Shown: piece by piece, positions 50,844 through 53,836 of the stretch
Numbering within the stretch: the stretch's first letter is position 1
How the letters are laid out: the number at the start of each line of letters is the position of its first letter
Source: Eggerthella sp.
GTDB taxonomy: Bacteria; Actinomycetota; Coriobacteriia; Coriobacteriales; Eggerthellaceae
Length of the DNA: 64,000 bases
Direction of reading: 5' to 3'
NCBI GenBank assembly: GCA_030540085.1
Contig: JAUNWY010000006.1
Coordinates: 1-64,000 of the forward strand
Translations under genes and position numbers: made by a program
Notes under the pieces: generated by a model
Database searches by the model: none
The model's input: only the letters and a program-made list of their open reading frames with translations
Told to the model about the DNA's origin: nothing

Positions 50844-51776
50844 ATGGATATTAAATGCAACTTAATCATCGATTCATGCTGCGATTTGCCCTACGAGGTG
50901 GTAGACCGCGATGGTGTGTATCTGCTCAAGTTCCCCTATATCGATGATGAGGGCGAACATCTTGACGATCTGTATCGTTCGCGTTCGGCACATGATTTTT
51001 ACGAGTCGATGCGCAACGGCTCTGAGCCTCGCACTGCTCAGATTCCCATGCCTGCGCTTCGAGAAGCGTTCGAATGGGCTCATGAACAGGGAAAACCAGC
51101 GGTGTATTTGAGCTTTTCGAGTGGACTTTCGGGAACGTTCGATACGGCATGCGTCTTTCTCGATCAGGTAAAACAGGAAATCCCGGATCTGGATGTCCGC
51201 ATGGTGGATACCAAGCTGGCATCTATCGCCGAGGCTTTTTTGGTGTATGAGGCATTGCGTCAGCGCGAAAAGGGACTGACCGCCGATGAGATGGTTGCCT
51301 GGGCCGAAGAGGCACGCTATTTCGTGGACCGCCAGTTCATGGTGGACGATTTGGAAGCGCTGCGACGGGGCGGTCGTATTCCGTCATCGGTTGCCTATGC
51401 GGGCTCCAAGCTCGATGTGAAGCCCCTTTTGGGCATCGATGCCGATGGGAAGCTGGCGCTTACGGGGGTTGCTCGCGGTCGCAAAAAGGGCATTCGAGCC
51501 CTGCATGAATACTATATGAAGCGACGTAGCTCTGATGCTCCAGGTCAGAATGTGGTTATCGGCAATGCCGACTGCCCCAAAGACGCTGAGCGCTTGATGG
51601 GTCTTCTTTCTAAAGAGGACGATTCGATTATGTTCCTGGAAACGAGCATCGGCCCGGTTATCGGGAGCCATGTAGGTCCGGGAATGATCGCTATTGTGTT
51701 TTGGGGGCAAGATTGCCGCGCAGATATTTCCATGGCCGACCGCATTGCGAACAAGGTCCGCGGGAAGAAGCAATAG
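50844..51776 (+). CDS. DegV family fatty-acid-binding protein (second copy)
   Basis: A 310-residue DegV protein with NLIIDSCCDLPYEVV, SEPRTAQIPMPALREAFEW, VYLSFSSGLSGTFDTACVF, LEALRRGGRIPSSVAYAGSKLDVKPLLGI and TSIGPVIGSHVGPGMIAIVFWG. It is clearly diverged from the first copy, in particular in the lid and lipid-tunnel regions, so the two probably bind different acyl chains rather than being a recent duplication. Tandem degV/fakB genes are common in Gram-positives. Likely co-transcribed with the first copy. Confidence 0.92.
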   Translation: MDIKCNLIIDSCCDLPYEVVDRDGVYLLKFPYIDDEGEHLDDLYRSRSAHDFYESMRNGSEPRTAQIPMPALREAFEWAHEQGKPAVYLSFSSGLSGTFDTACVFLDQVKQEIPDLDVRMVDTKLASIAEAFLVYEALRQREKGLTADEMVAWAEEARYFVDRQFMVDDLEALRRGGRIPSSVAYAGSKLDVKPLLGIDADGKLALTGVARGRKKGIRALHEYYMKRRSSDAPGQNVVIGNADCPKDAERLMGLLSKEDDSIMFLETSIGPVIGSHVGPGMIAIVFWGQDCRADISMADRIANKVRGKKQ

Positions 51777-51889
51777 CTTCCCGAGCCCGCTCTTTTGAAA
51801 TCTCTACGCATCGTCAGCGGGCTGTGTGCGGGGGTGCGTGTTCCCGAATTGGCGAATGCGCCATTCGATAACTTGGAAAGGATGTGCAT

Positions 51890-52873
51890 ATGAGCACTCA
51901 GGATTTGACTTTTGCATTTGCTGGCGATGAGCGCGTGGGCGCTGGCGTAAGCGGCTTGCTCGAAGCAGCAGGTTATCCGGCAACCGATATCTCCAATGCC
52001 GATGTAGTGTTTACGTACTGCACCAATACTTCTGCATTGGAAGATTTGTACTACGACACGGAGGGCCTGCTTCGCGGTTCCAGGGAAGGTGCCATCCTGG
52101 TCGACCTGAGTCCCTCTACCGTTTCGTTCGCTTGCGAGCTTGATGCCGTTGCCTGCGTGAACGGCCATGCGGCTATTGACGCTCCCCTGGTGGTGAGCGA
52201 CATGGTATGCGAAGAGGCATTCGTTAGTCGTGAAAATCTGGGCATTGTTGCTGGCTGCCGCGAAGACGCTGACTACAAAACGGTAAAGCCCCTGCTCGAT
52301 GCTATTGCTCATCGCGTGATGTGGATGGGTCATGCAGGAGCCGGCCAGAAAGCCAAGGTTGCCCTTACGTTGCAACGTTGCGCAACCTTGGTCGGCGCGG
52401 TCGAGGCTCAGGTCGCTCTCGCGAACGTCGGCAGCGACGTAAACGTGATGGTCGAGGACGTTATCGACTTCATGCATGACATGAATAGCATTTCTCCTGC
52501 TCAGGAAGCTTTTGCTCAGGCTTTGCTCGATGAAGAGTACGATGCTTCGTTCACTATCGAGCATCTGATGGGGGAAGCAACGGCTGCCCTTGCTTCCTTG
52601 GAAGATGAAGAAATGATCCTTCCTCAGGCAGAAGCGTGCTATCGCCTTATGGAGCTGCTTGCTTTGGTAGGTGGAATCGACTTGAGCCCTGCTGGCTTGA
52701 AGCTGGTATTCGCCGATGAAGAGACCACTAATCGCTACGGGCTCGATTGGTCCCGTGCCGAAGGCGCCTTCGAGGGCTGCGATTGCGGCTGCGAAGACGG
52801 CGAAGACCACGAGTGCGAATGCGGCCATGATCCCCACGAGGAGCATGAGTGCTGCGGCAAGCATCATCACTAA
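51890..52873 (+). CDS. Beta-hydroxyacid dehydrogenase-like protein with Cys/His-rich metal-binding tail
   Basis: A 327-residue protein. The middle and C-terminal parts match the 3-hydroxyisobutyrate dehydrogenase fold: LVDLSPSTVSFACEL, NGHAAIDAPLVV, MGHAGAGQKAKVALTLQ (with the catalytic-Lys-type segment), and a helical domain. The N-terminal Rossmann part is shortened by some 20-25 residues, and the usual GxGxMG reads FAGDERVGAG, so cofactor binding may be altered. The last 32 residues hold seven Cys and seven His (GCDCGCEDGEDHECECG, then HDPHEEHECCGKHHH), clearly a metal-binding tail. The tail is in frame and ends at a natural stop. A radical SAM gene follows 12 bases later. Start chosen at 51890 after GGAAAGGA. 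Confidence 0.75.
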   Translation: MSTQDLTFAFAGDERVGAGVSGLLEAAGYPATDISNADVVFTYCTNTSALEDLYYDTEGLLRGSREGAILVDLSPSTVSFACELDAVACVNGHAAIDAPLVVSDMVCEEAFVSRENLGIVAGCREDADYKTVKPLLDAIAHRVMWMGHAGAGQKAKVALTLQRCATLVGAVEAQVALANVGSDVNVMVEDVIDFMHDMNSISPAQEAFAQALLDEEYDASFTIEHLMGEATAALASLEDEEMILPQAEACYRLMELLALVGGIDLSPAGLKLVFADEETTNRYGLDWSRAEGAFEGCDCGCEDGEDHECECGHDPHEEHECCGKHHH

Positions 52874-52885
52874 TTTGGTGAGCTT

Positions 52886-53836
52886 GTGGGCGAATCGGTG
52901 AACAATGCCTTTGATTTAAGGGGATCCCGTGTGGGGTCCCCTTATTCTGCGTGCGCTTTGTGCCCTCGGCAATGCGGCGTGAACCGCGAAGAAGGGGAGC
53001 GTGGTGTTTGCGGGGCATCTGACGTTCTTCGTCTGGGGCGTGCTGCTCTGCATTGGTGGGAAGAACCATGCTTGGTGGGGGACAAAGGCAGTGGTGCTGT
53101 GTTCTTCTCGCATTGTCCGCTGCAATGCGTGTATTGCCAGAACAAGGAATTGGTGTCTGGCTCTGGAATCCAGATAAGCTTGCAGAAGTTTAAAGAGGTG
53201 CTGCTCCGTTTGCAGAACGAGGAGCATGCGGCGAATATCAACTTGGTTACGCCAACGCACTATACGCCCAGCATCGCTGTCGCTTTGGGCGAGCTGCGGA
53301 ATTCGGGGGCGCTTACCATTCCAGTGGTGTACAACACCTCAAGCTTCGATTCGCTTGAGGCGCTTCGCCTTATGAAGGGAAACGTGGATGTGTATCTTGC
53401 TGATTTCAAGTACGCATCCGCGCTTGAGGCGGGGAAGCTTTCCCATGCTCCCCGTTATCCCGAAATAGCACTGGCTGCCATCGAAGAAATGGTTGCTCAG
53501 GCTCCCGTGTGGGAGGAAGACGGCGAGGGCCTGCTGCTTAGGGGTGTTATTGTCCGTCATTTGGTTCTTCCTGGCAGGGTCGAGGAATCAAAGCACGCGC
53601 TCGCTACGTTGCATGAGCGCTTTGGCGGTAGTGTTCGGCTGAGCATCATGAGCCAGTACACGCCTTTAGCGTCAGGGCTTGAGCGTTATGGCCTTGCAGG
53701 TCGGGTAACCGAAGAAGAGTACGAGGAAGTGCTTGATTATGCTGATTCGCTTGGGATAGAAGATTATTTTTGGCAGCAGGGCGATGCTGCTCAGGAAAGC
53801 TTCGTTCCCGATTTCAATGGTGAAGGTGTGCGGTAG
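52886..53836 (+). CDS. Radical SAM protein, PflA-like
   Basis: A 316-residue protein with the radical SAM cluster motif in SHCPLQCVYCQNKEL (CX3CX2C) and an upstream Cys set (CALCPRQCGVNREEGERGVCG) that could hold a further cluster. THYTPSIAVAL, VVYNTSSFDSLEALRLM, GNVDVYLADFKYAS and GVIVRHLVLPGRVEESK place it with the PflA-related radical SAM proteins of unknown substrate (YgkA/MJ0103-like group). The start is uncertain: GTG at 52886 is used, GTG at 52898 is possible; both have weak sites. It lies directly after the metal-tail dehydrogenase, so the two may work together. Confidence 0.85.
   Translation: MGESVNNAFDLRGSRVGSPYSACALCPRQCGVNREEGERGVCGASDVLRLGRAALHWWEEPCLVGDKGSGAVFFSHCPLQCVYCQNKELVSGSGIQISLQKFKEVLLRLQNEEHAANINLVTPTHYTPSIAVALGELRNSGALTIPVVYNTSSFDSLEALRLMKGNVDVYLADFKYASALEAGKLSHAPRYPEIALAAIEEMVAQAPVWEEDGEGLLLRGVIVRHLVLPGRVEESKHALATLHERFGGSVRLSIMSQYTPLASGLERYGLAGRVTEEEYEEVLDYADSLGIEDYFWQQGDAAQESFVPDFNGEGVR

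Follow-up and report, generated by a model that had tools for sequence, protein, structure and literature searches.

Here we show, by comparison of sequences, that a 327-aa protein encoded by Eggerthella sp. (positions 51890..52873, forward strand, of the 64,000-nucleotide stretch of DNA analysed here, referred to as the window) belongs to a line vertically inherited from a beta-hydroxyacid dehydrogenase whose cofactor and catalytic sites decayed en route to the Eggerthellaceae. The assignment of the gene draws on its translation, Pfam matches, and orthologues; an in-frame GTG at 51884 is an alternative start that would add two residues. We give about even chances to the reading that its product is a pseudo-dehydrogenase kept under selection as a non-catalytic, DegV-linked scaffold or regulatory subunit, with an inherited, accessory, and putatively metal-binding tail. 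In these common gut bacteria, living relatives preserve the successive steps from enzyme to maintained non-enzyme, as orthologues that are (i) intact and tail-less, (ii) intact with a tail, (iii) partly decayed, and (iv) truncated. In Eggerthella, Gordonibacter, and Adlercreutzia, the label NAD-dependent oxidoreductase is probably wrong for genes of this kind.

The body of the protein has the two-domain HIBADH fold, as seen in Pfam, in the AlphaFold model (mean pLDDT 91.8), and in a Z of about 29 to PDB members. NAD_binding_2 (PF03446) was matched at 3.9e-10 over profile positions 43-161 of 161, above its cut-off, and NAD_binding_11 (PF14833) at 7.8e-6 with 26.6 bits, under its 30-bit cut-off. 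Structural comparison (Foldseek, VIA-align) placed the model among the hydroxyacid dehydrogenases with a best PDB Z of about 29-30, the best matches being glyoxylate reductase and gamma-hydroxybutyrate dehydrogenase (Z 29-30). Fold, descent, and domain order are shared with the beta-hydroxyacid dehydrogenases (HIBADH, tartronate semialdehyde reductase, GLYR; PF03446 plus PF14833), whereas the window protein lacks an intact cofactor site, has lost most catalytic residues, and has an additional GLDW segment and a tail. The former, GLDWSRAE (52739..52762, +), is a conserved segment at the end of the body and before the tail, and its GLDW is common to the whole order.

The preliminary description had noted a shortened Rossmann start without GxGxMG, and both alignment and models bear this out. 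Residues 8-28 (51911..51973, +) form b1-aA and carry GDERVG in place of GxGxMG; at 51974..52003 (+) the elements b2-aB-b3, about 24 residues that include the NRT cofactor motif, are gone. In alignment, the distance from the third Gly to bD has a median of 21 residues in Eggerthellaceae versus 45 in all canonical relatives, and the model of a canonical orthologue (L145) contains a strand (31-35) and helices (39-47 and 56-60) that the window protein does not have. The substrate loop PV[TS]GG reads PLVVS. By alignment, a residual lysine (Lys156; 52355..52357, +) occupies the catalytic-lysine position, and the catalytic-Asn position, three residues past it, is Leu. Several other residues of the body (G12, E51, Y54, P99, Q153, Q162, E172, and W287) are invariant or nearly so.

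Matches to the gene were found in 329 of 397 genomes order-wide and, nearly always in single copy, in 105/138 Eggerthellaceae genomes. Scoring of GxGxMG, NRT, P-V-[TS]-G-G, the catalytic Lys/Asn, and KD revealed a graded pattern of loss. Elsewhere in the class, in orders other than this one, the orthologue is canonical and has no tail, and at some of its loci naprt and a degV-like gene lie close by; cofactor and catalytic positions are intact in all 13 sequences (the third loop position being S or T, and the NRT Asn present in 11/13). They are likewise intact in 25/25 sequences of the families that we take, from GTDB grouping, to be Atopobiaceae (f2) and Coriobacteriaceae (f4), except for the NRT Asn, lost in two. 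Positions are partly lost in the small families f5-f10, and among 92 Eggerthellaceae the NAD site is gone and NRT deleted in every one, GG, Asn, and KD are mostly lost, and the catalytic Lys is substituted (R, H, or L) in 63. A gene that by eye resembles one for a nicotinamidase was seen in one other-order locus and in L139, which comes from one of the order's small families.

In a tree of body sequences with N-terminal columns omitted, the Eggerthellaceae form one clade (support 100) nested behind the families with partly decayed sites, with the canonical tail-less orthologues of other orders outside these, and the canonical tailed group forms a separate clade (98). Body dN/dS was 0.02-0.27 over eleven close pairs, and the decayed protein is therefore maintained by purifying selection; the gene has also been lost in whole lineages, and is therefore dispensable.

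Selection of this strength, the invariant or near-invariant body residues, and the retention of Lys156 would also be expected of a protein that is still an enzyme, with a reshaped site, another cofactor or small ligand, and a tail that supplies or guards a catalytic metal. We regard this as improbable, yet the best placed of the alternatives: the adenosine-binding b2-aB-b3 and NRT are missing throughout the Eggerthellaceae, GG, Asn, and KD are lost in most, and no NCBIfam enzyme cut-off is neared, the best score being 69.2 bits versus an equivalog cut-off of 340.75. Binding of a small ligand by the window protein is conceivable given the Lys at the catalytic position. The non-canonical dehydrogenase fold seen in the preliminary description is borne out, and it is probably non-catalytic.

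There is precedent for retention of a dehydrogenase body in a non-catalytic role, here inferred. The animal protein NPAC/GLYR1 contains an inert dehydrogenase domain that is described as a scaffold and that, although the Lys is gone, still binds NAD(P) (PMC13144531). Its structure (PDB 2uyy) has the same fold (Z 29.3); the window protein differs in that its cofactor site is deleted, that Lys156 is present (although lost in most orthologues), and that the other domains are different. The trypanosome mitoribosome assembly factor mt-SAF21 (PDB 6sga, 7pua) also has a dehydrogenase-like fold, within a ribosome assembly complex, but is eukaryotic and ribosome-bound.

Translation confirmed the reported seven Cys and seven His in the last 32 residues, in frame with the dehydrogenase-like body; the protein ends GCDCGCEDGEDHECECGHDPHEEHECCGKHHH. 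This tail (52775..52870, +) is predicted to be disordered, with pLDDT of about 43-52 along most of its length in the AlphaFold model. Given the C+H frequency of the genome (3.6%), a binomial estimate for 14 such residues in 32 is p of about 1.5e-12, or about 2e-9 across all genes. In a survey of C-termini by simple script, covering about 1,195 genes and 97% of the assembly (1.52 of 1.56 Mb, G000), the product ranked second in Cys/His richness; the richest C-terminus of the same genome belongs to a gene that appears DUF134/NifX-like by eye (G000:C12:23640-24483, minus strand). A CCGKH motif recurs at the corresponding position in L003, L007, and L020, three other loci of Eggerthellaceae, two of them from other genera. 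A frameshift origin of the tail, which the preliminary description had named as grounds for abandoning its reading, was ruled out: body and tail share one frame in relatives too. An antisense open frame of 441 codons (51545-52870, minus strand) spans the whole gene and is probably due to chance. A literature search on Cys/His tails of Coriobacteriia and on this gene returned nothing relevant.

Across the order, the tail follows a course of its own. In the canonical group (n=27) it has a median of 6 Cys and 11 His, and 21/27 tails contain at least 10 such residues; in Eggerthellaceae (n=91) the medians are 0 Cys and 3 His, at least 10 such residues occur in 10/91, and 15/91 have neither Cys nor His (Mann-Whitney p 5e-8 for richness between the groups, with kinship not corrected). 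Since intact enzymes carry the richer tails and many truncated ones a poor tail or none, the tail is uncoupled from truncation and is probably the older trait. The Cys/His-rich end is a fast-changing trait of the gene across the order and not a local oddity. On the simplest reading, the ancestor of those families of the order that have tails probably already carried one at a time when the enzyme had not decayed, and the tail drifted later. Independent gains are conceivable, and the shared motif is no proof of a single origin; such tails can evolve more than once, given that similar Cys/His segments occur on unrelated proteins in two of the genomes inspected. Segments of the ECCGGH type (L189, L206, L212) were found in related genomes, on a metallo-beta-lactamase-fold protein of G162 and, in G071, on two proteins, an alpha/beta hydrolase and a radical SAM-like one. 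A carbon monoxide dehydrogenase-like protein, so judged by eye, of the Eggerthella sp. assembly (G000:C12:263206-265273, minus strand) has the His-rich N-terminal segment HSKHEHEHGHHSHD. The case of the present gene points to Cys/His tails, putatively metal-binding, as a recurrent add-on in Coriobacteriales.

A second alternative, unlikely and slightly less favoured than persisting enzyme activity, is that the tail is a functionless, neutral low-complexity expansion produced by slippage of CAY/TGY codons. Its length and make-up are indeed very variable, tandem repeats such as HECCGGHHHH are found, and other proteins carry similar segments; however, tail dN/dS is likewise low (about 0.03-0.2 in close pairs), only two such C-termini exist in the window genome, and most canonical orthologues carry the tail. 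For the reading that we prefer, a selected non-catalytic subunit, the disordered tail would be an accessory segment binding Zn, Ni, or Cu, for buffering or protection, inherited from an ancestor in which the active site of the enzyme was not yet damaged. The C-terminal tail of SlyD offers a parallel, as it is unstructured, composed of Cys/His/Asp/Glu, metal-binding, and variable between species (PMC7055735). The window protein also has a disordered Cys/His C-terminal tail, whose metal binding is putative; SlyD differs in its body, an FKBP prolyl isomerase, and Pfam gives no FKBP match for the window protein. In Eggerthellaceae the tail varies too much for one conserved metal function to be claimed from it alone.

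A different feature of the C-terminus is widespread. Tails end in SxN in 67/91 Eggerthellaceae and in 7/10 sequences of f5-f10, and all 32 of the [FY]SxN endings among 1,778 open frames of at least 120 aa (45 loci, L032-L076) belong to the target gene, which suggests that this ending may be a recognised C-terminal peptide. It has been lost in the window genome. A possible remnant directly past the stop (FGELVGESVN) was too weak for a claim, and a glycyl-radical reading of GGFGAYSAN was dropped because an RVxGY-like motif is absent.

Gene neighbourhood is the basis for the proposed partner. The gene degV2 (50844..51776, +) is the constant upstream neighbour, with a gap of 113 bases to the gene in the window. 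The order holB-ricT-naprt-(degV1)-degV2-gene-radical SAM is near-constant, as far as contigs extend, in 45 named loci from Eggerthella, Gordonibacter, Adlercreutzia, Senegalimassilia, and others; in other families of the order degV lies directly upstream in 32/33 loci, and none of these 33 loci has a match to the radical SAM neighbour. A degV gene is the more constant neighbour of the two. The gap between degV2 and the gene in Eggerthellaceae has a median of 5 bases (at most 30 in 25/39), and in one locus (L076) the two overlap start to stop. Long open frames had hinted at a fusion of degV2 with the gene; this was rejected, as degV2 is read in a different frame and stops no later than the start of the gene.

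DegV proteins bind fatty acids. We propose that, once a beta-hydroxyacid dehydrogenase (HIBADH/GLYR fold) had lost its cofactor and catalytic sites with purifying selection persisting, the protein would act without catalysis, as a folded scaffold or regulatory subunit that is probably dimeric or tetrameric, and that its likeliest partner would be the DegV-family protein encoded immediately upstream. A more specific version, which we hold only tentatively, is that the lineage gained a putative metal tail, then lost enzyme function stepwise, and that the product works with DegV via its [FY]SxN ending or, in the window genome, via the Cys/His tail instead.

The radical SAM gene is a less dependable companion. 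It is kept in 127/138 Eggerthellaceae genomes versus 105/138 for the pseudo-dehydrogenase gene, and in genomes that lack the latter it directly follows degV2 in 6/9 loci inspected. The preliminary description had proposed that the fold may have been converted to metal handling or metal sensing, possibly in the service of this radical SAM protein; in keeping with that proposal, the neighbour is kept in nearly all named Eggerthellaceae loci and a Cys-rich tail is present in the window genome, but the tail is richest where the enzyme site is intact and the neighbour absent, many truncated orthologues have a poor tail or none (without any Cys or His in the 15 noted above), the radical SAM gene persists in Eggerthellaceae that lack its supposed servant, and in the window a stem-loop separates the two genes, so that we consider this the least likely of the explanations weighed here. 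The co-occurrence expected among tail, shortened N-terminus, and radical SAM neighbour held across the Eggerthellaceae for truncation and neighbour, with the tail uncoupled.

The distance between the two genes depends on where the second begins. The radical SAM open reading frame as listed (52886..53836, +) starts 12 bases downstream, as first described, if the GTG at 52886 is its start. A 12-bp stem-loop (52917..52944, +) lies between the genes and overlaps the listed 5' end; homology begins at about residue 13-22 in most relatives, near or after the stem-loop, and the true start may therefore lie further on. Among Eggerthellaceae, the gap from the gene to the onset of radical SAM homology has a median of 87.5 bases. 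The stem-loop was rejected as an intrinsic terminator since too few T follow it. A frame in L042 that appears fused with the radical SAM gene was set aside, as it passes through masked bases. A stem-loop at the equivalent place is clear in two relatives only (L009, L018), and its conservation is not claimed.
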